Positions 1 through 12,577 of a stretch of DNA of 41,184 nucleotides are shown piece by piece. Position numbers and translations under genes: made by a program. Within the stretch, counting starts at the first letter, position 1; each line of letters begins with the position of its first letter. The stretch is from Alistipes sp. Lineage in GTDB: Bacteria > Bacteroidota > Bacteroidia > Bacteroidales > Rikenellaceae. Below the pieces are notes generated by a model. The model ran no database searches. It saw nothing but the letters and a program-made list of their open reading frames with translations, and was not told the DNA's origin. The stretch spans positions 1 to 41,184 of the forward strand of contig JAGAOZ010000012.1 of the NCBI GenBank assembly GCA_017623505.1, read 5' to 3'.

Positions 1-25
1 AATTTTGAATTTTGAATTTTGAATT
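1..25. repeat. Short 7-bp tandem repeat at the window edge
   Basis: At least three head-to-tail copies of the heptamer AATTTTG are visible immediately beyond the stop codon of the ccsA-like gene. The array is cut by the window edge, so its full length is unknown. It contains no open frame or hairpin that I can see. It is either a simple-sequence tract or the edge of a larger intergenic repeat. Confidence 0.6.
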
Positions 26-799
26 CTAATAGGTATGCATTCCACCCTGGGCAGCAGGGAGGAAATTGATGCCCCACCAGCACATCTGCAACAACAGAAA
101 GGCAAAGACAAGTAGTCCGAAAGCCCAATTATATGCTGTACGCTCGGCACTACGCAGGTGCATATATAAAAGGTAGGCGAGCCAGGTTGCGGCAGCCCAG
201 GTCTCCTTAGGGTCCCAACTCCAATAGTCACCCCACGCCTGCTTAGCCCACAAAGCACCCATAACCATACCCATAGTGAGGAACGACCACCCTACTCTGG
301 TAAGGTTATCACACATCGACATCTCGTCGGCTTGAGGCTCACGACGTCGAAACCACAGATACACAGCAAAGAGCGTCACAGCACCCAACAGTGCATAGGC
401 CATCATATAAACAACGACATGAGGCACAAACCACACACTTTGCAGGGCAGGCATAAGTTCCTTGGAATGGATTTCGGGCTTAAAGATATTGATACACAGA
501 AAGACAATGGTCATAACCGTAGTAAACGAAAGAATCCAACGGTAACGCCATCGTGCATAGACAAGGCAACCAGCAGAAGCTAAAAACAGAGAGTACCACA
601 GACGAGTCTCGCCCATAGTACGGAGCGGCGGACGCTCCATGATAACCCACATGCCGACAACGAACGAAAGCAACACCATAGCTCCCGCAACAGAGAGCGT
701 AAGGGCAGCGACACGCTTACCACGAAAGGCAACAACAGCTCCCGAAATAAGCAACAGCGAGGCTACAATAGCGTAAATATAGAGATAGTCCCAACCCAT
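26..799 (-). CDS. ccsA: Cytochrome c biogenesis protein CcsA (system II heme export/ligation)
   Basis: CcsA is the heme-handling membrane subunit of the system II (ResB-CcsA) cytochrome c synthetase. With ResB it delivers heme across the membrane and attaches it to CXXCH motifs. The tryptophan-rich WWD heme motif (WGDYWSWDPKE) is plainly present in the C-terminal half. Several hydrophobic helices surround it, with a candidate heme-ligand histidine in PHVVVYMMAY. I place the start at the ATG at 799 (MGWDYLYIY), which gives 257 aa. The longer reading to 919 overlaps resB and adds a non-membrane extension. The gene lies 5 bp after resB and is the last gene of the cytochrome operon. Its natural client is the multiheme cytochrome encoded at the head of that operon. 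Confidence 0.9.
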   Translation of the reverse strand: MGWDYLYIYAIVASLLLISGAVVAFRGKRVAALTLSVAGAMVLLSFVVGMWVIMERPPLRTMGETRLWYSLFLASAGCLVYARWRYRWILSFTTVMTIVFLCINIFKPEIHSKELMPALQSVWFVPHVVVYMMAYALLGAVTLFAVYLWFRRREPQADEMSMCDNLTRVGWSFLTMGMVMGALWAKQAWGDYWSWDPKETWAAATWLAYLLYMHLRSAERTAYNWAFGLLVFAFLLLQMCWWGINFLPAAQGGMHTY

Positions 800-804
800 A
801 GCAT

Positions 805-2004
805 CTAAGATTTTGTTTGTCGGCCACCTCGGCCCATCTGCAAGAACATCAATGCGCCAGCGAGAAGAATCGCCCACATAGAGTAGTGAATAATCGGATA
901 CCAGCCATCGCGCACACACTCAAAGATGGAGTATTTACTCCACTTACCCATATCGACGTCATAGCCCGACTGGTAGATATACCAATCGCCGACACGTGCC
1001 GGATGATTGACCTCGATATCGACAGAGGATGACTCTCCAGCCTCATTGACAATCTCCACACGTGAGAGATAGCGTTTAGGTTGTGGCGGCAACATCACAA
1101 CAGCATAATGCATATCCAACTGAAGAGGAAGGGCTCGATTTTGCGCTCCACCCGATGTTACCCAACCTTTGACAACATCTCCCGCAGGCGTCTTAACTGA
1201 AAGCAACACCGCAGGGGCAGCTCCCTGCTCCGCGCTTGTCAGGTAAACACCCTCGGCATTAGGTAGCGCAGAGTCCAAATAACGCTCAACAGTAAACTTA
1301 TAGCCCTCAATTTCGGCGGCATCAGCGTCGCCAAGCTGAAGTTGGTTCTCACTAACACTACGCTGAGCAAGGTCATAAAGAGCTAACTTAGGCGAATATG
1401 TCTCCATGGAAAACTCCTCAAGACAGAGGGTAAAAGGTAGCTGGTGGGCCTCATTATAGGCCGAATAACCAACGTGGACCGTATGATTCAGCGGGGCAAC
1501 GACCTTAACGCGCAGCTTACTGCCACTGCTAAACATAGCAGCACCCAACGCAACACACACCGACAGATGAAGCAACAGAGTCAGTTTACGACGAGAACGC
1601 CAATGGCGCACATCATCAATCGCACGCAGCCCCATACATGTCACAAAATGCAGAAGCGTCAGATTGAAAGGATATGACGAGGTCATATTCCTAAAGCCCA
1701 ACATACCCGACAAGCCCTCCGTAGAGGCATCTTGAGGTGTAAGGCCAAAGATGATACACAGCGTCATCATCGAGCATAGCGTCGCAATAGAGTTCTGCGG
1801 GCTATACAAAAAACGAAATAGCGATACCTTATTGGAGAATGAGTAGGCGACAATCAACAGATAGAGGTAGCAGACGGCAGCGACCACACCCCATGGTGCA
1901 GCCAAGAGATGTGATGGGACCTCCCCAAACAAAATTTGCAGCACCACTCCTGCAACAAGCAGGAGCAGTGACTGCAAAAAAGCTCTTTTATAGCCCGACT
2001 TCAT
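805..2004 (-). CDS. ResB/Ccs1-like cytochrome c biogenesis protein
   Basis: This 399-aa protein has three hydrophobic segments near the N-terminus (roughly residues 8-28, 33-55 and 70-90), a fourth around 145-160, a large soluble middle region and a final helix near residues 370-392. That topology is typical of ResB/Ccs1, which chaperones apocytochrome c and reduces or holds its CXXCH cysteines for CcsA. Sequence conservation in ResB is low, so the assignment rests on topology plus the adjacent CcsA with its unmistakable WWD motif. It starts 9 bp after the isomerase-like gene and ends 5 bp before ccsA, so the three are probably co-transcribed. Confidence 0.8.
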   Translation of the reverse strand: MKSGYKRAFLQSLLLLVAGVVLQILFGEVPSHLLAAPWGVVAAVCYLYLLIVAYSFSNKVSLFRFLYSPQNSIATLCSMMTLCIIFGLTPQDASTEGLSGMLGFRNMTSSYPFNLTLLHFVTCMGLRAIDDVRHWRSRRKLTLLLHLSVCVALGAAMFSSGSKLRVKVVAPLNHTVHVGYSAYNEAHQLPFTLCLEEFSMETYSPKLALYDLAQRSVSENQLQLGDADAAEIEGYKFTVERYLDSALPNAEGVYLTSAEQGAAPAVLLSVKTPAGDVVKGWVTSGGAQNRALPLQLDMHYAVVMLPPQPKRYLSRVEIVNEAGESSSVDIEVNHPARVGDWYIYQSGYDVDMGKWSKYSIFECVRDGWYPIIHYSMWAILLAGALMFLQMGRGGRQTKS

Positions 2005-2013
2005 AACCTCGGT

Positions 2014-2931
2014 TTATGCCTCAGACCACTGCTTACGCAACAACTCTACGGCAGCAGCGACACTCTCCGACCTCTCACCCTTACAACCACACTCGAAGCT
2101 GACATAATATGGGTAGTTCAGCTCCTTAAGAGCACGCAGGCCATCAACATAGTTATCTACGGCGCCATCCTCACCCGGCATATTGCGTGTAGCGCGACTC
2201 GCTACGTGAACATGCTGAAGGTACTTCTTGCCGGCAGCAAGGAATGCAGCATAATCCGAAGTCTCCTCCTGCATGTGCCAGAAGTCACCCATACACTTAA
2301 CGCCCTCACTCTTAGAATCACGGCAGATGGCAGCAGCATCAGCAACCTGACGCAGATAGTGAGCCTCCGCGCGATTCAATGGTTCAAGGATAACCGTAGT
2401 ATTGTGTTTCAAAGCGAACTCGCCCAACTCGTGCATCTGCTCACACAAGAACTCGCGCGTCTGAAGGGTGTGAGGCATACATGGCTGCTGACCATTAAAG
2501 GCAGGGACCATAATAACACCCGTAGAGCCAACAGCTCCGGCAGCCTCGATAATCTCGCGCATGGAGCTATCGAACTTAGCCTTCTCGGCAGCATCCTCAG
2601 CAAGGATAAAGCCATCGAAACCGGCACAGATAGCCGACACCTTAACTTTACGCGACGACAATGCTTGCTGAATCTCAGTCACACGCTCTGCTAAGCCACG
2701 ACCACTAAGCTCAAGACCAACGATGCCCATACTCTCCATAATATCGAGCTTCTCGGTCAAGGTCTGGCCATGGATAACCCACTCCTGGAATGAGAGCTTC
2801 AGCTCCGGAGCAGCATTAGCCACAACAGGCTTCTGCTCACAGCATGAAGTGAGGGTATTGACAACAGAGGTTGCGCCAACAATGCCTACGGCGCCAAGCA
2901 GTGAACGCTTTAAAAACTCTTTTCTATTCAT
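2014..2931 (-). CDS. Exported sugar phosphate isomerase/epimerase-like TIM barrel protein
   Basis: The 305-aa product has the AP-endonuclease-2/xylose-isomerase-like TIM barrel fold seen in hydroxypyruvate isomerase and ketose 3-epimerases. The metal site of that family is readable: Glu183 (LEPLNR), Asp216 (GDFWHM), His242 (HVHVA) and Glu280 (SFE). The N-terminus is an export signal with a Tat-like NRKEFLK motif, a hydrophobic stretch and a lipobox-like LTSC at residues 27-30. The protein is therefore probably a lipoprotein acting outside the cytoplasm, where sugar phosphates are unlikely; a free sugar or keto-glycoside is a better substrate guess. It sits between an exported Gfo/Idh/MocA oxidoreductase and resB. 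Gfo/isomerase pairs occur in 3-keto-glycoside metabolism, which makes that a reasonable but unproven role. Confidence 0.8.
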   Translation of the reverse strand: MNRKEFLKRSLLGAVGIVGATSVVNTLTSCCEQKPVVANAAPELKLSFQEWVIHGQTLTEKLDIMESMGIVGLELSGRGLAERVTEIQQALSSRKVKVSAICAGFDGFILAEDAAEKAKFDSSMREIIEAAGAVGSTGVIMVPAFNGQQPCMPHTLQTREFLCEQMHELGEFALKHNTTVILEPLNRAEAHYLRQVADAAAICRDSKSEGVKCMGDFWHMQEETSDYAAFLAAGKKYLQHVHVASRATRNMPGEDGAVDNYVDGLRALKELNYPYYVSFECGCKGERSESVAAAVELLRKQWSEA

Positions 2932-2988
2932 CTCTTAAACATCAGGGCAACGATGCTACGCCGCCCTATAATTCGTTAGTATCAAAAA

Positions 2989-4353
2989 TTATTTCTTACC
3001 AGGAACAGGCACCTTGTACTGTGACATATCGACATCACCAAGCTCAAGCTTCTCTGGAATGAAGTTCATCTGAGCACCGCTAATCTCGTCCCAAGTAACG
3101 GTAGCACCGGTATATGCAGCCTCACGGCCCATAATACCTGCCAAACATGAGATAGCACAATCCTCAGCCTCGACGTGTGAAGTACCCTTACGGATGTGGT
3201 TAATCAAATCGACATGCTCCAAGCAGTATGGGTTACGCTGCTTCCAGTTAGCCTCCTCAGCCTCAAAATCATACTTCCAAAGCACATTGCCCTGCAAGTC
3301 CTTAATAACATGCTCATTATTCATCGCAGACCAAGAGCCCTTAGTACCCTGGATGAACTCGCCGATGCAGTTGCTACAACCGTTAATCTGACGGCTAACA
3401 CTATGCAGACGAACGCCATTCTCGAACTCGAAATCTACGCTAAACTGGTCGAACTGGTCACCTGTAACGCGGTGGTTACGTGAGCCCTGAGCTGTTGCCT
3501 TGATAGGCTTCATACCTGTCATCCACAAGAATACGTCGATATTGTGAACGTGCTGCTCAACGATGTGGTCACCCGACAACCACTTCCAATTCACCCAGTC
3601 GCGAATCATCCACTCCATATCGCTCCAGCCTGCCTCACGGTTACGATACCAAAGCTGGCCCTGATTCCAATAAACTGCACCGCTGACGATATTACCAATC
3701 ATACCCTCTTGCACCTTTTTGAAACCCTCGACATATGAACGCTCGTGGTGACGCTGAGTACCGGTCACAACAACCAAACCATTAGCCACAGCCTGACGTG
3801 CTGAAGCAATCACCTTGCGGTAGCCCTCAGCATCAACTGCGATAGGCTTCTCCAAGAAGCTATTAACGCCCTGCTTGGTTGCATATTCAAACTCACGTGC
3901 ACGGAAAGTAGGAGGAGTAGTACAGATAACGTAATCGATACCTGCGTCGATAACCTTCTTATAAGCATCGAAACCAACGAAGCACTTATCGTCAGCAACC
4001 TCCTGACCATAGCTATCCTTCAACCAGCGACGTACGCCCTCAATCTTATCGGCAAAAACATCACCCAAAGCGACAACCTTAACGCCATCTGCTGCCTGCA
4101 AAGCATCGTTAAGAGCGCCCGTACCACGGCCACCACAGCCAATCAGACCGACCTTAATCTCGCGACCTGCAATAGCCTTATCGGGTAACTCAGGGATGTA
4201 ATATGTACCTGCCTGACGCAAAGCCTCACCACCTGCTGCCTGCTCGCTCTTACCGCATGAGCTCAAAACAGCTGATGAGCCCACAAGTGTAGAGACACCC
4301 AAAAGGGCTGAATACGAAAGGAAATCCTTTCTACTAATCTTTTTCTTCTCCAT
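2989..4353 (-). CDS. Exported Gfo/Idh/MocA family NAD(P)-dependent oxidoreductase
   Basis: This 454-aa protein begins with a Tat-like signal (SRKDFL at residues 7-12) and a lipobox-like LSSC at 30-33. A Rossmann domain follows, with the nucleotide-binding loop VGLIGCGGRGTG at about 68-79, the family EKP motif with catalytic-type Lys169, and the C-terminal substrate domain containing GDH (261-263) and EQHVHNID (266-273), where the family's catalytic histidine lies. Members oxidise or reduce hydroxyls of sugars, polyols and glycosides. Export of a nucleotide-dependent enzyme implies a tightly held cofactor, as in Tat-exported glucose-fructose oxidoreductase. It lies 26 bp downstream of the cytochrome-SUMF1 gene and 57 bp upstream of the isomerase-like gene. 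Substrate and electron partner are unknown; electron exchange with the cytochrome is my inference. Confidence 0.88.
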   Translation of the reverse strand: MEKKKISRKDFLSYSALLGVSTLVGSSAVLSSCGKSEQAAGGEALRQAGTYYIPELPDKAIAGREIKVGLIGCGGRGTGALNDALQAADGVKVVALGDVFADKIEGVRRWLKDSYGQEVADDKCFVGFDAYKKVIDAGIDYVICTTPPTFRAREFEYATKQGVNSFLEKPIAVDAEGYRKVIASARQAVANGLVVVTGTQRHHERSYVEGFKKVQEGMIGNIVSGAVYWNQGQLWYRNREAGWSDMEWMIRDWVNWKWLSGDHIVEQHVHNIDVFLWMTGMKPIKATAQGSRNHRVTGDQFDQFSVDFEFENGVRLHSVSRQINGCSNCIGEFIQGTKGSWSAMNNEHVIKDLQGNVLWKYDFEAEEANWKQRNPYCLEHVDLINHIRKGTSHVEAEDCAISCLAGIMGREAAYTGATVTWDEISGAQMNFIPEKLELGDVDMSQYKVPVPGKK

Positions 4354-4379
4354 AGCTAATAGTTTTATTTTGTTTTTAC

Positions 4380-5912
4380 TTATTTTGCTTCAACACCCTC
4401 AGGCAGCTCACACACAACGCGGAAACCGATACCCTTGATATTGGAATACCACCAGATACTCTTAGGGTTTTGTGGGTCGGTACGTAACCAATCGTCGTGG
4501 CGAGTGCTGGCACGGTAGGCACAGCGCAGATTAGAGGCATCATAGCTATAATCGCCACCTCTGATAACATGTTCCTTACCCGACGAAGGACCCTTAGGAT
4601 CAACCACTCCATTCTTGAGCTGAGCATAAGCCTTATCGTCATACCAATCCGAGCAATACTCCATAACGTTACCCAACATATTCTTCAAACCAAAAGGATT
4701 TGCCTTAACCTTAGATGGCTCGGCGGTACGATTCTTACTATTGTTGATGTAGATAACGTAGTCCTTAATAACATCGGTCTCGGCATCGAAGAAATTGCGC
4801 CAGAAGCCCTTATTTGAATAATCCTCAGGGTCACCGGCAAAGAAGTATGGTGTAGAGGTGCCTCCACGCGCTGCATACTCCCACTCCGCCTCGGTAGGCA
4901 GACGATACTTCTTACCCGTCTTAAGCGAAAGCCACTTACAGAAGGTCTCGGCAGCGTAGTGTGTCATAGTGATTGCAGGGCGGCTACCCATACCCCAACC
5001 CTGGTCAGGAGAGCCAAATGGTGCAGTAGGACCACTGACAGCATCCAAATCCTCACGTGAGTTATTAGCGTAGACCTCCTCCGGCGAAGTACGTCCCTCG
5101 CTCATAGTCTCCATATAGAAGGCCCAATATTGGTCCCATGTAATCTCTACCTCAGCCATAAAGAACGGAGAGATGGTAACCTTACGGCTTGGCATCTCAT
5201 TAGCACGAGAGAATGGCTCATCCATAGTGCTACCCATAGTAAAGCTGCCACCTGGGATAGCAATCATATTAATCGAAGCCGAAGTACCAGGGATAGTCTC
5301 CACGAAGTTCTCAAACTTGGTGACAACAGTCGAATCGGCATAAATCTCACCCTGCGTGGTCGTAGGCACACCCGCCAACTGGCCGTGAACGTAGTTCGGA
5401 TTATAGTGACCGGCGTCAAGGTGGCAGTCGATACACTGCAAGCCGAGCTTCTGCTTATTGTCCTCATAGTAGAGGTGGGCAATGATAGCCTCGTCACTCA
5501 CGCCCTTAGGCAACAGATTGACGTGACAAGCCTCGCAAGACTCGTTATAGACGATGCCGCGTGCATACTCCAACTCTCCCTTACTTTCCCAATCTATCTC
5601 ACTCTTCTCGTTGGTCCAATACGACCAAATATCTTTTACGCCCATTCGCATCTTAGCCCAAGCATAATCAAACGAGCCAGCAGGGGGCAAATGGCACTCG
5701 GCACAGCCTACGATAGTACCTGACTCGTTATTATAGTGAACAGACTTCTTCCACGCCTGGTCAGCCTCGGTGTGATAGTGACATGACATACAAGACTCAT
5801 TGGTCGAGCTATTAACCCAATACCAATTGAAGAGTATCATAGCCGAGATACCCAAAACGACACCACCAAGGAGTAAAAGGATTGTTTTCTTATTAGCTTT
5901 AGCTTTGAACAT
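4380..5912 (-). CDS. NrfH/NapC-like tetraheme cytochrome c fused to a SUMF1 (FGE-like) domain
   Basis: The 510-aa product has an N-terminal membrane anchor (about residues 9-31). Four heme c motifs follow, CMSCH (41-45), CAECH (70-74), CEACH (126-130) and CIDCH (160-164), in the arrangement of the small NrfH/NapC/NirT quinol-oxidising cytochromes. From about residue 214 to 505 comes a SUMF1/formylglycine-generating-like domain (IPGGSFTMGS, RLPTEAEWEYAARGG, GNVMEYCSDW, RGGDY, GFRVV). The usual enzyme has two active cysteines near the RGG motif. Only one nearby Cys is present here (464), so catalysis as an FGE is doubtful, and a structural role as in GldJ/GldK-type proteins is possible. The residue two after the heme-1 motif is His rather than the usual Met. 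It heads the operon ending in resB-ccsA. Confidence 0.9.
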   Translation of the reverse strand: MFKAKANKKTILLLLGGVVLGISAMILFNWYWVNSSTNESCMSCHYHTEADQAWKKSVHYNNESGTIVGCAECHLPPAGSFDYAWAKMRMGVKDIWSYWTNEKSEIDWESKGELEYARGIVYNESCEACHVNLLPKGVSDEAIIAHLYYEDNKQKLGLQCIDCHLDAGHYNPNYVHGQLAGVPTTTQGEIYADSTVVTKFENFVETIPGTSASINMIAIPGGSFTMGSTMDEPFSRANEMPSRKVTISPFFMAEVEITWDQYWAFYMETMSEGRTSPEEVYANNSREDLDAVSGPTAPFGSPDQGWGMGSRPAITMTHYAAETFCKWLSLKTGKKYRLPTEAEWEYAARGGTSTPYFFAGDPEDYSNKGFWRNFFDAETDVIKDYVIYINNSKNRTAEPSKVKANPFGLKNMLGNVMEYCSDWYDDKAYAQLKNGVVDPKGPSSGKEHVIRGGDYSYDASNLRCAYRASTRHDDWLRTDPQNPKSIWWYSNIKGIGFRVVCELPEGVEAK

Positions 5913-5973
5913 AAAAAATTAGATTTGCGGGCAGCATACGCTACCTCCATAGACTAAAACGCTATATCAGAGC

Positions 5974-5981
5974 CAAAGGTA
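5974..5981 (-). promoter_or_regulatory. Probable -7 element for the cytochrome-SUMF1 operon
   Basis: TACCTTTG on the minus strand matches the Bacteroidota -7 consensus TAnnTTTG and lies 62 bp upstream of the cytochrome ATG, just past the terminator of the RND operon. No well-spaced -33 TTTG is evident, so support is moderate. Confidence 0.5.
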
Positions 5982-6024
5982 GTGATTTTTTCTCTAAAGA
6001 GAAAACAAGAGAGCATATTTTTAG

Positions 6025-6062
6025 ACAAAAACAAAGGTCGGACCACAAATGTAGCCCGACCT
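6025..6062 (-). terminator. Rho-independent terminator of the RND efflux operon
   Basis: Reading the minus strand, a perfect 7-bp stem (AGGTCGG / CCGACCT; arms 6056-6062 and 6035-6041) is followed by TTTGTTTTTG. It lies 25 bp after the stop of the PG0541-family gene and separates that operon from the cytochrome operon. Confidence 0.8.
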
Positions 6063-6087
6063 GAGTCAAAATATGCGTAAGCAACTT

Positions 6088-6381
6088 CTAAATAGTCGCT
6101 GTAACATCCCATGCGAAAGCTCGCAAGCCCTGCTTAGGATTCTCCTCGTCGAGAGCCTTCAGCTTCAAGAGGAACTTCTCAGCCAAAGCATCATCGGCAA
6201 CAGAGATAAGTGCCGAGTTCATAGTTGGCCAAGCATGGTCGCCCAAATGAGGCTCACCATCCTTAGAACCTCGTCCCATAAGCTCCTCCCAGCCTGTATA
6301 GCCACGGAGGCCCAAATCGTCCATTATGTTGAGCACATCCTCAAACATAGACTGGTTACAAGATACAAATACTGCTTTCAT
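6088..6381 (-). CDS. PG0541-family transporter-associated PII-like protein
   Basis: This 97-aa soluble protein has no signal peptide. It resembles the small PII/CutA-like (ferredoxin-fold) proteins known in Porphyromonas as the PG0541 family: residues LGLRGYTGWEEL followed by GEPHLGDHAWPTMNSAL and the C-terminal GLRAFAWDV. In that genus too it lies next to an RND pump cluster. The gene starts 12 bp after the pump gene and is the final member of the operon. PII-fold proteins bind small ligands and control partner proteins, and the DUF3240 relatives next to heavy-metal RND pumps are a parallel case. A regulatory role on the pump is plausible, but no ligand or partner is shown by the sequence. 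Confidence 0.75.
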   Translation of the reverse strand: MKAVFVSCNQSMFEDVLNIMDDLGLRGYTGWEELMGRGSKDGEPHLGDHAWPTMNSALISVADDALAEKFLLKLKALDEENPKQGLRAFAWDVTATI

Positions 6382-6393
6382 AATTCTGCTTTT

Positions 6394-9300
6394 TTAGCTG
6401 TTTTGCTTCTCCGCTAATCTCTTCAAGCGACGCTTCTCGCCACGTGAAGAGAAGGCTGTGTAGAGTGTAGGAATAAATATCAAGGTAATAAGTGTAGAGA
6501 ATGACAATCCCCATGCAACAGACATACCCAATGAGTTCCACATCTCGGAACCGACACCGTTACCAACAGCCATAGGAATCATACCCAACACAGTGGTAAG
6601 TGTGGTCATCAAGATAGGACGCAGACGGCTTCGACCTGCGGTAACAACAGCCTCCACAAGGCCCATACCTCGCTCACGACAGAGAATTGTGTAGTCGATA
6701 AGCACGATACCGTTGTTTACCACAATACCAATAAGCATCAGAATACCCAACAATGACATAACGTTCAAAGGTACTCCCGTGATAACCAAACCGATAATTA
6801 CACCAATAACCGCAAATGGGATAGAGAACATAATCACGAATGGGTCCACCAAAGACTCAAACTGTGAAGCCATAATAACGTATACCAACACAATCATCAA
6901 AGCCATCAACATAAACAGGTCGCCGAAGGTCTCCTGCTGGTCCTCATAAGTACCACTAACCTGCCATACATAGCCCGCAGGGAACTCTATTTGCTGGTCA
7001 ATCTCAGACTCTACAAAGGCGATAACATCACTCATAGCATAGCCCGAAGCAACAACACCCGAAACGGTGATATAACGCTCACGGTCCTTACGCTCAATAG
7101 TCGGTGGTGAATATGACTCGACAACCTTACCCAAGTCACGAATCTTAACACCTACACCCTGTGCGTTATAGATGGTGATATTCTCAATATCGGCCAAAGA
7201 CTCACGGAAAGGCTTGTCATAGCGTACACGGATGTCGTACTCCTCACCATCCTCACGATAGTATGAAGTAACAGAACCGTTGATACGGTTACGCAAGTAA
7301 GCCGATGCAGTAGTGACGTCAATACCATTCTGAGCCAACTTCTCCAAGTCGAAATCGACGTGGTACTCAGGAGTGTACTGGTCACGCGAAATGGTAACCT
7401 CCGAGCAACCACCATAGCTGAGCATAAGCTGCTGTACCTTCTTAGCCAAGTCGTCGGTAATATCGAAATCATAACCATAAATCTCAATATCGACAGTACT
7501 CTGTCCCATACCGCCTCGCTGACCTGACTCGTTTACGTTATAGGTACGGATAATACTATACTCATCCAAAATACGACGCATACCGTCACCAATCTCCGAC
7601 AAAGTACGAGTACGCTCGGTCTTCTTCAGAAGCGACATATTCATCGTGATAATATGGGTACCGTTATCCTGCATCGAAGCAAAGAGGTTATCCGAATCGG
7701 CCTGTCCCTCACGTACTGAGAGGGTCTTAATCTCAGGGAACTGGTCACGGAAACGCTGCTGAATCTCCAACGCAAGCTCACGAGTAATATCCTGACGTGT
7801 ACCAACAGGCAGCTGGATATCAACACTCATCTGAGCGTTATCCTGCACAGGGAAGAACTCTGTCTTAACAATTGAGCCCAAGCCAAACAAGACACCAAAT
7901 AACAAGCCGGCAGAGAGCAACAAGGTGATAAACTTATGGGTAACACACCACTTCAACAAACCACCGTACAGATTGTTAAATGCGTTCATCACAGCATCAA
8001 TCTTTGCCTGGAACCACGCCTTCTTTGGGTTCTTCTTCATCATCAACGAGCACAATACCGGAGTAAGGGTAATAGCCGCGATGGTTGATACGGTCAAAGT
8101 GATGGTTACCATCCAACCCATAGAGTTGAAGAGGATACCCGCCATACCCGTAACCATAGTAAGTGGCAAGAACACGGCGATAGTGGTCAAAGTACCACCC
8201 ATAACCGAAATACCCACCTCCTTGGTTGCAAAGATAGCAGCCTGCTTAGGCATAGCTCCTCGGTCAATATGGGTAGTGATATTCTCCAATACCACAATGG
8301 CATTATCCACAACCATACCAATCGCTATGGAGAGCGACGACATGGTGATAATGTTGAGCGTCTCACCCGTAGCCAAGATGTAGATAATAGCCGCAAGCAA
8401 CGAAATCGGAATAGTCAAAACGACAACGATGGTTGCACGCCAACGGCCCAAGAAGAAGAATACAACCAACATAACCAAGATAAAGGTCGTCACGATAGTA
8501 TCACGCAACGAATTTACCGTGTTGGTAATATTCTCGGAAGTATCAACGATAGTAAAGAGCTGCACATCCGATGGAAGAGTCTTCTGAATCTCCGCCAAGT
8601 GCTCCTTAACCTCACCGGCAATCTCCACAGCGTTAGCACCAGACTTCTTCTGGATGATAATCATACCACCCTGCTGACCATTGGTAAAGGCCTCCTGTGT
8701 ACGCTCCTGGATAGTATCCTTAATCTCGGCAACATCACTCAGGTAGATAGGTGCGCCATTGCGATAGCCTACAACCAAGTGACGCAACTCCATAGGGTCC
8801 TCAAACTCGTGGTCCACACGCAAAGCATAGACATTAGAACCGATATCGAAGGTACCCGCAGGGGTGTTGCGGTTAGCTACGGCAATAGCATTCGAGATAG
8901 CCTCGATACTCAAACCGTAAGCCTCCAACTTATTAGGGTCGCAGTAGACCTGAATCTCACGCTCAGGAATACCTGCGATAGAGACCGTACCTACGCCACT
9001 AACACGCGCCAGAGGAGTAGCTACCTGGTCATCCAAAATCTTATACAATCCGCTCATACTCTCGTCTGCCGTAACACCGACCATCAAGACCGGAATCATA
9101 TCAGATGAGAACTTGAAGATTGTAGGCTGGCTCGCTCCGTCAGGAAGTGTAGTCAGCAGGTCGAGTTTATCTCGCACATCGTTAGCCAGAACATCGATAT
9201 CATAGCCATATTCGAACTCCAGCATAACAACGGAGATATTCTCCTTAGAGTTAGAGGTAATGTGCTTCAGGTGGTCCACACCATTCAGAACGTTCTCGAC

Positions 9301-9498
9301 AGGACGAGTAACGTTATTCTCAATATCCTCGGCACTCGCACCCGGATATGAGGTCATTACCATCATAGCATTTGACTCAATATCGGGGAAAAGGTCGATA
9401 CCCAATCGCGAGAGCGAGAACAGACCCATAATTCCAATCGCTACGAAGAGAATTATGGTCGTAATCGGGTTCTTAACCGACGTCTTATAAATATTCAT
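6394..9498 (-). CDS. RND-family efflux transporter, inner-membrane pump (AcrB/HAE-1-like)
   Basis: The 1034-aa length, the N-terminal helix (about 12-30) and the two repeats of large periplasmic loops and membrane bundles identify an RND drug/solute-proton antiporter. Visible family landmarks are PDIESNAMMV, YPGASAEDIE, the TM4 segment SIAIGMVVDNAIVVLEN and the TM10 segment GILMLIGIVVNNGIVLIDY. The AcrB proton relay uses two Asp in TM4 and a Lys in TM10; here TM4 has Asp398-Asn399 and TM10 has Asn-Asn. Coupling residues therefore differ, as in other Bacteroidota HAE-1-like pumps. The gene follows the fusion protein gene by 6 bp in a regulator-TolC-MFP-RND-PG0541 operon. Substrate cannot be read from the sequence. 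Confidence 0.95.
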   Translation of the reverse strand: MNIYKTSVKNPITTIILFVAIGIMGLFSLSRLGIDLFPDIESNAMMVMTSYPGASAEDIENNVTRPVENVLNGVDHLKHITSNSKENISVVMLEFEYGYDIDVLANDVRDKLDLLTTLPDGASQPTIFKFSSDMIPVLMVGVTADESMSGLYKILDDQVATPLARVSGVGTVSIAGIPEREIQVYCDPNKLEAYGLSIEAISNAIAVANRNTPAGTFDIGSNVYALRVDHEFEDPMELRHLVVGYRNGAPIYLSDVAEIKDTIQERTQEAFTNGQQGGMIIIQKKSGANAVEIAGEVKEHLAEIQKTLPSDVQLFTIVDTSENITNTVNSLRDTIVTTFILVMLVVFFFLGRWRATIVVVLTIPISLLAAIIYILATGETLNIITMSSLSIAIGMVVDNAIVVLENITTHIDRGAMPKQAAIFATKEVGISVMGGTLTTIAVFLPLTMVTGMAGILFNSMGWMVTITLTVSTIAAITLTPVLCSLMMKKNPKKAWFQAKIDAVMNAFNNLYGGLLKWCVTHKFITLLLSAGLLFGVLFGLGSIVKTEFFPVQDNAQMSVDIQLPVGTRQDITRELALEIQQRFRDQFPEIKTLSVREGQADSDNLFASMQDNGTHIITMNMSLLKKTERTRTLSEIGDGMRRILDEYSIIRTYNVNESGQRGGMGQSTVDIEIYGYDFDITDDLAKKVQQLMLSYGGCSEVTISRDQYTPEYHVDFDLEKLAQNGIDVTTASAYLRNRINGSVTSYYREDGEEYDIRVRYDKPFRESLADIENITIYNAQGVGVKIRDLGKVVESYSPPTIERKDRERYITVSGVVASGYAMSDVIAFVESEIDQQIEFPAGYVWQVSGTYEDQQETFGDLFMLMALMIVLVYVIMASQFESLVDPFVIMFSIPFAVIGVIIGLVITGVPLNVMSLLGILMLIGIVVNNGIVLIDYTILCRERGMGLVEAVVTAGRSRLRPILMTTLTTVLGMIPMAVGNGVGSEMWNSLGMSVAWGLSFSTLITLIFIPTLYTAFSSRGEKRRLKRLAEKQNS

Positions 9499-9504
9499 CG
9501 TCTA

Positions 9505-10533
9505 CTACTCATTAACAATTTCTACTTTCATACCATCCTTCAAAGCTGTATTACCGGTAACAACAATCTCGTCACCCTCTGTAATACCACTCAGAATCTC
9601 ATAAGTCGCGCCCTCACGAGCACCCAACTCAACCTTATGAATCTTAACTGTACCATCCTCCTGCAAAACGTAGATGTGACGGTCACCTGAGCCCAACAAC
9701 TTAACAACAGACTGGTCAGGAACAACAATGTTACGACGTGTACCATAGTTCATTGTAACACGAGCGTACATACCCGGCTTAAGAACCTCCTTAGGATTAT
9801 TAACGGTAATCTCAACCTCGAAAGTACGTGTTGTAGCGTCGATTGAAGGGGTGACGCGTGATACCTTACCTGTGAAAATCTCGCCCGGAACAGCATCAAA
9901 CTCAACACTAACCTCCATACCCTTCTTAACGTAAGGATAGAGGCTCTCAGATGCGCTGATGAAAATCTTTACGGGATTAATCTTCTGAACAACAAAGATT
10001 GGAAGTGAACCAACCATATCACCACTATCATAGTTACGTGCAGTAACGACACCTGCGATAGGAGTTGTCAAAGTAGTATTCTCCAAAAGGTTCTCATAGG
10101 TAAGCTTCGACACCTCATAAGCAGTCTTGACAGCCTCCCAATTAGCCTTTGACTCACCACCGAACTTATAGAGCTCGTCTGAACGCTCAAAAGCGGCCTT
10201 GTTATTCTCATACTGAGCCTTAGCCTGCGCCAAAGCAGACTCATCAAGGACAGCAACACGCTGACCTGCGTAGACCTTATCGCCTACATCAACCAACAGC
10301 TTCGAGATACGACGAGGCTGCTGTGGGAAGATGTTATTTACGGTATAACCCTCGACATTACCCGTAAAGGTGCTCTTCAATACTACATCCTGCATAGTAG
10401 CAATCTGGGTTGTTACCTTACGTACTGGCTCGGCCTTCTCTGTGGTCTCAGCCTTCTTTCCGCCTGAGCAAGCAACACTTGCCACGCATACACTTCCAAT
10501 GAGAAGTGCTTTAAAAAATCGATTCATCTTCAT
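9505..10533 (-). CDS. RND efflux periplasmic adaptor (membrane fusion protein) lipoprotein
   Basis: This 342-aa protein starts with a lipoprotein signal peptide whose lipobox is SVAC at about residues 20-23. The adaptor architecture is clear: a lipoyl/barrel-sandwich half (KLLVDVGDKVYAGQRVAVLD), an alpha-helical hairpin (ALAQAKAQYENNKAAFERSDELYK), the second lipoyl half (TTPIAGVVTARNYDSGDMV), a beta barrel (VKIFISASESLYPYVKKGM) and a membrane-proximal domain. It links the RND pump to the TolC-like channel. It lies 14 bp after the TolC gene and 6 bp before the pump gene. ATG codons at 10533 and 10527 are both possible starts; the signal peptide is intact with either. Confidence 0.93.
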   Translation of the reverse strand: MKMNRFFKALLIGSVCVASVACSGGKKAETTEKAEPVRKVTTQIATMQDVVLKSTFTGNVEGYTVNNIFPQQPRRISKLLVDVGDKVYAGQRVAVLDESALAQAKAQYENNKAAFERSDELYKFGGESKANWEAVKTAYEVSKLTYENLLENTTLTTPIAGVVTARNYDSGDMVGSLPIFVVQKINPVKIFISASESLYPYVKKGMEVSVEFDAVPGEIFTGKVSRVTPSIDATTRTFEVEITVNNPKEVLKPGMYARVTMNYGTRRNIVVPDQSVVKLLGSGDRHIYVLQEDGTVKIHKVELGAREGATYEILSGITEGDEIVVTGNTALKDGMKVEIVNE

Positions 10534-10547
10534 ATCTATATCTGTTT

Positions 10548-11897
10548 TTAGTTTTCTTGTGATAAAGTACCCTTAATCTTCTCCAACGACACCTGATTAA
10601 TCAGATAGTTGTATATCGCTGTACTACGTGAAAGCTCAGCCTGGGTGTAAGCCAGCTGTGAGTTGTCGATATCAACCAACGTTCCACCGCCGACCTCATA
10701 ACGCTTCACGGCAATCTCATAGCCTCGCTTTGCACTATCAATAGTCTGAGAAGAGGCGTTATATTGCTTTAAATTGGTCTGCATGGTTGTCGAATACTGC
10801 ATCATAGCGGTATGCAACTGACGCTCGGTATTCTCTCTCTGAAGCTGGATATTCGACAGATTAATCTTTGCCTGAGCCAACTCGGCACGACGCTTACCTC
10901 CTGAGAAGATAGGAATATTGAGGCTCAAGACAGCCACAGAGTATGGATTCCACTGATACTGACCGAACTTAAAGTCCTCAGCCATAGCTGTAATGTTATA
11001 ATTAACGCTCAACGCCAAAGTAGGGATATTGGTAGCCTTAACCATCTCGACAGACTTCTCCAACATACGCTCCTGGATATCCAACTGACGCATTGTTGTA
11101 TTGTTATCCAAATCCATATTCATATCAATATCGGCCTGCATAACAGCCTCGAAATCAGCCAAAGAGCCCTTACAGTCAATATCCTGCTCCAAATCCAAAC
11201 CAAGCAGAGCCTTCAACTGCCACAAAGCAACCACGATAGAGTTCTGAGCATTGAAAACGTTAGGCTCGGCATTTGCAACAGAGACCTGTGAGGTGATGAA
11301 GTCATACTCCGATACGTTACCAACCTTATACTTCTGCTCTACAATCTTATGGTTCTCAACAGCATTGTCGTAAACGCGCTTATAGACGTTGTATGAATCC
11401 TTCGCCAAAAGCACCTGATAAAAAGCCTTTGACACCTGCTCAACCATATCGACACGTGAGCCACGAGCCTGCTCTACGGCCAACTCAACATCCATAGCCG
11501 AGAGCTTGAGCGACTTCCACAACTGAGCATTGACAACAGGCAACGCAGCCTGAAGACCGCCACTGTAATTGTTAGCCGTTCCGACCTCAATGGTCTGACC
11601 AGAGAAGTGCAAACGCTGCTTCTTGATGTAACGCTGGTAAGTAGCCGAAGCACTGATATCTGGCCACAAAGCAGCATAAGTACCGCGCTTAGCATACTTC
11701 TTAGCCTCGATAGTCTTGTCGGCAATCTTAACCGTCGGATTCTCGCTCAATGCTATACGCAAAGCATCCTCCAAACTCAACATCAGCACCTGAGATTCCT
11801 GCTCCGTAGCACTCTCAGTGGCTGTCTCCTGTGCCGAAGATGGCACCGCTACCGAAACGCATACAAGCGTCAGCAACGTATAAAAGAGATTTTTCAT
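10548..11897 (-). CDS. TolC-family outer membrane efflux protein
   Basis: The 449-aa product has a Sec signal peptide (cleavage likely after SSAQ near residue 23). The duplicated outer membrane efflux protein domain follows: LEDALRIALSENPTV opens the first helical repeat and LSLNIPIFSGGKRRAELAQAKI starts the second. It forms the trimeric exit duct used by the RND pump and adaptor encoded next. It begins 20 bp after the TetR-type regulator gene, and the gene order outer membrane protein, adaptor, pump matches the xep-type clusters of Bacteroidales. Confidence 0.92.
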   Translation of the reverse strand: MKNLFYTLLTLVCVSVAVPSSAQETATESATEQESQVLMLSLEDALRIALSENPTVKIADKTIEAKKYAKRGTYAALWPDISASATYQRYIKKQRLHFSGQTIEVGTANNYSGGLQAALPVVNAQLWKSLKLSAMDVELAVEQARGSRVDMVEQVSKAFYQVLLAKDSYNVYKRVYDNAVENHKIVEQKYKVGNVSEYDFITSQVSVANAEPNVFNAQNSIVVALWQLKALLGLDLEQDIDCKGSLADFEAVMQADIDMNMDLDNNTTMRQLDIQERMLEKSVEMVKATNIPTLALSVNYNITAMAEDFKFGQYQWNPYSVAVLSLNIPIFSGGKRRAELAQAKINLSNIQLQRENTERQLHTAMMQYSTTMQTNLKQYNASSQTIDSAKRGYEIAVKRYEVGGGTLVDIDNSQLAYTQAELSRSTAIYNYLINQVSLEKIKGTLSQEN

Positions 11898-11917
11898 AAC
11901 CTTACTAAAATTTATAC

Positions 11918-12577
11918 CTAATTAATATTATTGTTTCTTCTCTCTTGCAAAGTTGCAGGGCGTGGCTCTCGAGCCAAAATCTCATCGATAACCTGCAAAC
12001 CCTTCTGTGAAGCTAAGCCTCTCAAGAAATTCACGACCATAGCACCAAAAGCCTCCTGACGTGAGATATTCTCCGGTAAGATGATATTCTTGTCGCTAAT
12101 CAACATACCCGCCGTGGTCAAAAATAGACGCGCCATAAGCTCAATATCAACGTGCTCGTCCAGATAGCCCTCCTCTCGGCACTTATCAAGAGCATATTGC
12201 AAGCCCTTCAATCCTCTATCGGAATGGTAACGTTGAACTCGCTCGTGGACAACAGGATAGAACTTCTTGAGGTTAGTTGTCAAACGACACTCAACGTCAC
12301 CCGACATACCATTATTGCACAAACTACGCACACTCTCCAGCAAAATCTCCAACATATTGTTGAACTGCTTAGCACGCATAGACAATTCCTCATAACGATT
12401 ATCCATATAACGGACAATTCCTTCGTAGAGCAACTCCTCCTTATCGCCAAACATCTCATAGAGCGTACGCTTCGACATTCCCAACTCGTTGGCAACATCA
12501 TCCATACGTACTGATTTGATGCCCAATGTGACGATTACATTGGATACGTGCTCAATTACTCTTTCTCGCTGTGTCAT
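11918..12577 (-). CDS. TetR/AcrR-family transcriptional regulator of the efflux operon
   Basis: The 219-aa protein has an N-terminal TetR helix-turn-helix (about residues 10-50), including VRMDDVANELGMSKRTLYEMFGDKEEL. The all-helical ligand-binding C-terminal domain diverges, as usual for the family. It is the first gene of the efflux operon, so it probably represses its own promoter and the pump genes until an effector binds. A good promoter and a perfect inverted repeat lie directly upstream. There is no divergent gene next to it, so autoregulation within the operon is the simplest model. Confidence 0.9.
   Translation of the reverse strand: MTQRERVIEHVSNVIVTLGIKSVRMDDVANELGMSKRTLYEMFGDKEELLYEGIVRYMDNRYEELSMRAKQFNNMLEILLESVRSLCNNGMSGDVECRLTTNLKKFYPVVHERVQRYHSDRGLKGLQYALDKCREEGYLDEHVDIELMARLFLTTAGMLISDKNIILPENISRQEAFGAMVVNFLRGLASQKGLQVIDEILAREPRPATLQERRNNNIN

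Follow-up and report, generated by a model that had tools for sequence, protein, structure and literature searches.

The locus described here stands close to two kinds of known systems. The NrfH, NapC, NirT and TorC cytochromes are characterized by an N-terminal helix and four CXXCH hemes, and belong to the Cytochrom_NNT family. The BT2156-2160 cluster of Bacteroides thetaiotaomicron (B. theta) and LacABC of Caulobacter, which is accompanied by a 3-keto hydrolase, comprise a periplasmic glycoside dehydrogenase with sugar isomerases encoded nearby (PMC9007349, PMC11300592). BT2158 is reported to act in the periplasm as a glycoside 3-dehydrogenase and to be required for certain disaccharides and glucosinolates (PMC11300592). 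BT2157 is described as a 3-ketotrehalose hydrolase (PMC9007349), and both are reported as dispensable for raffinose-family sugars (PMC11501099). In a 41,184-nucleotide stretch of Alistipes sp. (assembly GCA_017623505.1, contig JAGAOZ010000012.1, positions 1 to 41,184; hereafter the window), a minus-strand operon encodes a tetraheme cytochrome fused to a SUMF1-like domain, an exported-looking Gfo/Idh/MocA oxidoreductase (Gfo), an isomerase, ResB and CcsA. It differs from the cytochromes above by the attached SUMF1 domain, by the CXXCHxH motif at heme 1 and in that no reductase partner is seen, and from the glycoside clusters by the tetraheme–SUMF1 fusion and by a 3-keto hydrolase that is usually not adjacent. 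The set formed by the heme–SUMF1 protein and the exported-looking sugar enzymes is conserved in many Bacteroidales, several of them from gut or rumen, and probably represents an undescribed extracytoplasmic electron transfer to or from sugars. Our preferred explanation, which we hold tentatively, is that the operon encodes a periplasmic redox module for sugars or glycosides, linked to the quinone pool of the membrane and probably oxidative. No description of the fusion or of its gene order was found in the titles and abstract beginnings of open-licence PubMed Central articles, and one may exist elsewhere in print. The features of the operon are the following:

4380..5912, minus strand: tetraheme NapC/NirT-type cytochrome–SUMF1 fusion, 510 amino acids (aa) (open reading frame (ORF), Pfam, conservation)
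5394..5897, minus strand: membrane anchor and four-heme domain of the fusion, Cytochrom_NNT at aa 6-173, with CMSCHYH, CAECH, CEACH and CIDCH (Pfam 2.7e-26)
4497..5270, minus strand: SUMF1/FGE-like domain of the fusion, FGE-sulfatase at aa 215-472, lacking the cysteine pair of FGE and followed by a conserved DPQxPKSxWW stretch (Pfam 2.6e-41)
2989..4353, minus strand: exported-looking Gfo/Idh/MocA oxidoreductase, 454 aa (Pfam GFO_IDH_MocA 3.8e-9)
2014..2931, minus strand: exported-looking xylose-isomerase-like TIM barrel, 305 aa, related to 3kws and YcjR (Pfam AP_endonuc_2 3.1e-28)
805..2004, minus strand: ResB, cytochrome c maturation, 399 aa (Pfam ResB 5.6e-11)
26..799 (ATG at 799; longest form from GTG at 919), minus strand: CcsA/CcsB-type cytochrome c assembly protein (Pfam Cytochrom_C_asm 9.2e-31)

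The original prediction, drawn from the DNA letters, had proposed a five-gene unit of this kind, and the ORF list and Pfam domains agree with it: all five minus-strand ORFs are present in 26-5912, separated along the operon by 26, 57, 9 and 5 base pairs (bp). The last ORF (26-919) takes its longest form from a GTG inside resB, and the ATG at 799 yields the 5-bp gap. The NrfH-like protein carrying a large SUMF1 domain, another element of that prediction, is recovered with both of its Pfam domains. The fusion scores below the NCBIfam cut-offs of the NrfH, TorC and NapC models, and Cytochrom_NNT lies above the Pfam cut-off. A low-confidence model of the fusion (mean predicted local distance difference test score, pLDDT, of 65, insufficient for a fold search) places a membrane helix at aa 8-34.

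To evaluate conservation, relatives of the fusion were collected by a contig scan and the best 80 of 239 were used (the near set), among which the closest named one comes from a Rikenellaceae metagenome-assembled genome and is 82% identical. In the order, taken as Bacteroidales, 51 of 393 genomes gave a match to the tetraheme–SUMF1 protein (E 1e-60); the sole match in genome G705 is cut at a contig edge, its SUMF1 part being visible. From the order, 40 fusion places were analysed (the order set); they come from 36 genomes, of which four contribute two copies each. Many record titles of the fusion relatives point to rumen or gut. Downstream of the fusion, and in the same orientation, 118 of the 120 loci encode an exported-looking Gfo/Idh/MocA protein (near set, 80/80; order set, 38/40, the exceptions being L147 and L171), with a median gap of 40.5 bp over 106 measured ORF pairs. 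Exactly four CXXCH motifs are found in each of the 112 fusion ORFs (74 of 80 near, 38 of 40 order) that our script isolated whole.

The other genes of the operon are less constant. In the near set, the isomerase is present in all 77 loci long enough to judge. Three loci of each set were too short for this assessment; in the order set, an isomerase of the window's type was seen in 8 of the 40 loci and another TIM barrel, of twin-arginine translocation (Tat) type, in 5. ResB adjoins the fusion in 47 of 68 assessable near loci (12 near and 6 order loci being too short) and in 0 of 34 assessable order loci, where a hidden Markov model built from near and nrf ResB proteins also found none. Adjacent or not, it occurs in 41 of the 42 genomes of the best 80 relatives that were searched for ResB and NrfA, in line with what a heme protein requires. 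The complete five-gene order was observed in 44 of 80 near loci; of the 36 remaining loci, 15 offer less than 6.5 kb downstream. These loci are related by descent, and the counts are not independent trials. The recurrence of the fusion–Gfo pair (118 of 120 loci) and of the five-gene order (44 of 80) exceeds chance. Because ResB and the isomerase vary in the order set, the constant core is the fusion and Gfo, which the isomerase, ResB and CcsA regularly join in the loci closest to the window.

The operon also exists in a cultured commensal, Parabacteroides distasonis (NZ_OY725790.1, locus L194), where the first three genes are the same as in the window. There, the fusion protein is currently annotated as a nonheme iron enzyme, and its four hemes are therefore easily overlooked. 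The P. distasonis operon is carried on a 278-kb record labelled plasmid, and genes for two regulators of LuxR type and for a TonB-dependent receptor come after it.

We next turn to the SUMF1 domain, which belongs by sequence to the family of FGE, PvdO and GldK. Its nearest solved relatives are FGEs (best 5.3e-22), with PvdO lower in the list, and SUMF1-like folds include the Treponema variable protein 2y3c. The domain retains YRLPTEAEWEYA, and a conserved DPQxPxSxWW stretch after it is common to stand-alone homologues. It differs from FGE, PvdO and GldK by its own clade with Gfo-linked relatives and by the missing FGE cysteine pair: the residues aligned to these cysteines, presumably catalytic in FGE, are not Cys. 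FGE activity was rejected on this basis. The match to FGEs, together with cytochrome bd genes near some loci, could speak for an FGE-, EgtB- or PvdO-like oxygen-using oxidase to which the hemes supply electrons from quinol, but with the cysteine pair absent and so many records titled rumen or gut we judge such an oxidase improbable.

In a midpoint-rooted tree of 79 SUMF1 domains, the 39 sampled fusions form one clade (support 100/99). Their sister group, with weaker support (92/57), consists of 24 stand-alone proteins; the remaining 16 SUMF1 rows lie outside both clades. Gfo lies next to the stand-alone gene on the same strand in 19 of these 24, is divergent in 1 and absent in 4, and was found for none of the 16 others in the 5-7 kb read. 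In other Bacteroidota, the 29 stand-alone SUMF1 loci that scored best in a search of the phylum, 20 of which were read at length, include 24 in which a Gfo homologue follows on the same strand. None of 19 stand-alone homologues scored carries a CXXCH motif. Because a heme-less SUMF1 also precedes Gfo in these genomes, the SUMF1–Gfo pair appears as the core and the cytochrome as an addition; the simplest history would be that the pair came first and later acquired the heme domain in Bacteroidales.

These pairs bear directly on the origin of the operon. A diverged nrf operon acting on nitrite or another nitrogen oxide would account for the NapC/NrfH-type heme domain and for ResB and CcsA next door, as they are in the nrf operon of L193, whose CcsA is 55% identical to that of the window. 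The order nrfH-nrfA-resB-ccsA, on which the original prediction leaned, was indeed observed in L193, the one fusion genome of the 42 in which NrfA was found. NrfA was not found in the window's own genome (93.7% complete). However, the fusion and the L193 NrfH share 28% identity over 131 aa, and they differ at the first heme motif, which reads CXXCHxH in 112 of 112 isolated fusions and CXXCHxM in the one NrfH examined, that of L193, this Met being, we assume, at or near the heme-1 ligand. Considering in addition the SUMF1–Gfo pairs devoid of hemes and the adjacency of ResB, limited to the nearest loci, we rejected the derivation from nrf, and a role in nitrogen oxide reduction is very improbable. 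Thus, of the initial proposal, the unit, the fusion, the exported-looking enzymes, the absence of NrfA and the conservation are supported, and the replacement of NrfA by sugar enzymes is not supported.

As to the sugar enzymes, the window's Gfo contains GCGGRG, EKP and HVHNID motifs, an R-K Tat-like motif and a lipobox-like Cys. It has the Rossmann domain of the family, with a nicotinamide motif of GxGxxG-like form and EKP, as well as the C-terminal domain, and its confident model (pLDDT 85) matches the fold of many Gfo/Idh/MocA dehydrogenases, including Zymomonas glucose–fructose oxidoreductase (GFOR) and glucuronide-3-dehydrogenase. Signal peptides of Gfo and of the isomerase were judged by sequence pattern. 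By such a pattern search, 78 of the 127 Gfo ORFs of the loci carry RR, 28 carry RK as in the window and 21 neither, and a lipobox-like Cys is present in 124. TatC was detected in 39 of 43 fusion genomes (the 42 above and the window's own).

The isomerase matches 3kws (1.9e-109) and then YcjR (2.3e-25). The isomerase of the P. distasonis operon is 3kws itself, with 285 of 286 aligned residues identical; this structure, solved without an assigned function, is named merely a putative sugar isomerase in the PDB. E, D, H and E are aligned at YcjR-type positions of the window's enzyme, and would correspond to the Glu-Asp-His-Glu residues that we take to be the metal ligands of YcjR-type epimerases. 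YcjR of Escherichia coli (6wn6) is described as a 3-keto-D-glucoside 4-epimerase, and a cytochrome is not among the genes of the ycj cluster given in that report (PMC11543891).

A redox system that works on sugars outside the cytoplasm is plausible and better supported than before, although unproven, and heme electrons may be coupled in it to sugar chemistry. The periplasmic module that we favour could operate as follows. Gfo would already carry its nicotinamide when exported through Tat and would oxidise one of the ring hydroxyls of its sugar or glycoside substrate, perhaps the one at C3, and the TIM-barrel isomerase would epimerise or isomerise the keto product. The SUMF1 domain would bind the substrate or Gfo and hand electrons to the tetraheme, which would deliver them to menaquinone, its hemes having been attached by ResB and CcsA. 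Oxidation of the sugar by Gfo and movement of the keto group by the isomerase are proposed by analogy; we infer the substrate, the C3 chemistry, the bound nicotinamide adenine dinucleotide (NAD), the electron route and its direction. The oxidative direction is favoured because the potentials of NADH (about -0.32 V) and menaquinone (about -0.07 V) allow electrons to flow from the former to the latter and hardly the reverse.

Two other schemes could accommodate the same genes. In the first, the sugar enzymes would be redox-neutral and recycle their nicotinamide like GFOR, the SUMF1 domain would bind or anchor and the hemes would serve another task. GFOR, which recycles its own cofactor, is indeed among the fold matches of Gfo, SUMF1-like folds include 2y3c with its binding role, and stand-alone SUMF1 proteins do without heme. 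It is nevertheless difficult to reconcile with heme motifs complete in 112 of 112 fusions and with ResB in 41 of 42 fusion genomes, and we consider it rather unlikely. In the second, the operon would encode a respiratory reductase: quinol would reduce the tetraheme, and the fused SUMF1 domain would act as terminal reductase on an outside substrate processed or prepared by Gfo and the isomerase. The heme domain belongs to the NapC/NirT family, whose known members feed reductases, and SUMF1 sits where NrfA or TorA would act. Moreover, cytochrome bd genes upstream of 6 of 80 near loci indicate a quinol oxidase in those genomes. On the other side, we know of no SUMF1-type reductase, the 19 stand-alone homologues lack CXXCH, the FGE cysteines are absent from the domain, and quinol hardly reduces NAD, which would leave Gfo a bystander. 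Such a reductase is on balance unlikely, though the most probable of the alternatives.

Several observations weigh against the oxidative sugar module. In the known proteins of NapC/NrfH type, electrons move the opposite way, from quinol outward, and for this reason the reductase keeps its place among the explanations. No flavin or iron-sulfur step was found that would link nicotinamide to heme. MenD exceeds the cut-off in only 4 of the 43 fusion genomes and is without match in the window's genome; in one more genome it is split over two contigs, and in two it is divergent and below the cut-off. In most of these genomes menaquinone would therefore need uptake, and gut bacteria are reported to take up quinones (PMC5738691). 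That MenD-poor genomes keep a NapC-type cytochrome suggests quinone salvage or another electron partner. With regard to the sugar enzymes, the window's Gfo carries R-K in place of R-R, and 24 of 40 order loci are without either tested TIM-barrel type on the same strand within 4.5 kb. In addition, 3-keto-disaccharide hydrolase genes are a weak marker of the operon when scored against genome density: the near set contains 6, with 4.4 expected from the density in the window's genome, and is not enriched, and the order set contains 6 against 1.9 expected, a weak enrichment (P 0.014). Finally, BLAST gave no significant match (best E 0.03) between the window's Gfo and the Tat-type Gfo proteins encoded beside 3-keto hydrolases in its own genome or in L018, and the analogy with BT2158 is loose because of this.

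That 3-keto cluster of the window's own genome (locus L195, 3292-7808) contains, in this order on one strand, tatC, a TIM barrel, a Tat-type Gfo/Idh/MocA gene and a 3-keto-disaccharide hydrolase; its Gfo is 69% identical to the Tat-type Gfo of L018. In L167, a 3-keto-disaccharide hydrolase, Gfo, a TIM barrel, a Tat-type Gfo, the fusion, a further Gfo and an isomerase follow one another on one strand. This run and the one with a 3-keto-disaccharide hydrolase in L138 are single cases, and suggestive.

The best hint about the electron route comes from the stand-alone pairs. ApbE, described as a flavin transferase for extracytosolic redox proteins (PMC11334425), is encoded near 8 of the 20 stand-alone SUMF1–Gfo loci read at length (L114, L118, L122, L123, L125, L129, L130 and L132), and within the same gene run in L114, L118, L123, L129 and L130. 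The expected number is 0.15 (Poisson P 7e-12), as estimated from 48 copies in 24 genomes totalling about 105 Mb in a post hoc test in which some loci are close kin. No ApbE gene was found in the 120 fusion loci. Given the ApbE genes near the stand-alone pairs, we also considered a covalent flavin on Gfo or on the fusion. However, no flavinylation target was recognised: the usual motif [ST]GA[ST]x[ST] was found in a single fusion out of 112, in 15 of 127 Gfo proteins and in none of the 19 stand-alone proteins. Its lack of conservation in the Gfo and SUMF1 proteins led us to reject this option, and counts as a further difficulty for the oxidative module. The distribution of ApbE, a correlation, hints that the SUMF1–Gfo pair relies on an external electron carrier, which would be flavin for one branch and heme for the other. 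One step further, it is conceivable, though doubtful, that throughout Bacteroidota the SUMF1-like domain is a new electron-accepting partner of exported nicotinamide-dependent sugar dehydrogenases, with electrons leaving through ApbE-dependent flavin carriers in one branch and, in Bacteroidales, through the fused tetraheme to menaquinone.

To our knowledge, no electron acceptor has been described for periplasmic Gfo/Idh/MocA sugar dehydrogenases. A quinone-type cytochrome fused to the steady SUMF1 neighbour of Gfo is a concrete candidate, and the SUMF1 partner just proposed, if real, would answer how these enzymes shed their reducing power. Such dehydrogenases matter to gut Bacteroidales, as exemplified by BT2158 (PMC11300592), and the module, if confirmed, would mean that fermenting gut bacteria couple outside sugar processing to respiration.

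Two further elements were noted upstream of the operon:

5974..5981, minus strand: TACCTTTG, Bacteroidota-type -7 promoter-like element (pattern TAnnTTTG)
6035..6062, minus strand: terminator-like stem-loop of 12 pairs, between the upstream gene (end 6088) and the operon (hairpin scan)

Both would suit a single operon transcript, each being a weak signal alone: TAnnTTTG, which we take to be the Bacteroidota -7 consensus, is matched 55 times in the window against 25.8 expected, and 11 terminator-like hairpins were counted in 1-6500 against 6.1 expected in shuffles. The source genome measures 2.0 Mb, and the window starts at base 1 of its contig, just past ccsA. On the other side of the operon, 6088-12577 encodes a PG0541-type protein, a resistance-nodulation-division (RND) pump, a membrane-fusion protein, an outer-membrane efflux protein and a TetR-type regulator; related ORFs also precede the operon in L002, L004 and L005. 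The cytochrome bd genes mentioned above (L030, L033, L034, L036, L037 and L040) share the strand of the fusion and are separated from it, on its upstream side, by a single gene of the endonuclease/exonuclease/phosphatase family (Pfam on L030 only). Lastly, a gene for a small PF19480 (DUF6016) protein, which we read as a cupin, is inserted between Gfo and the isomerase in L005 (13076-13636) and in 16 other loci, mostly titled Alistipes.

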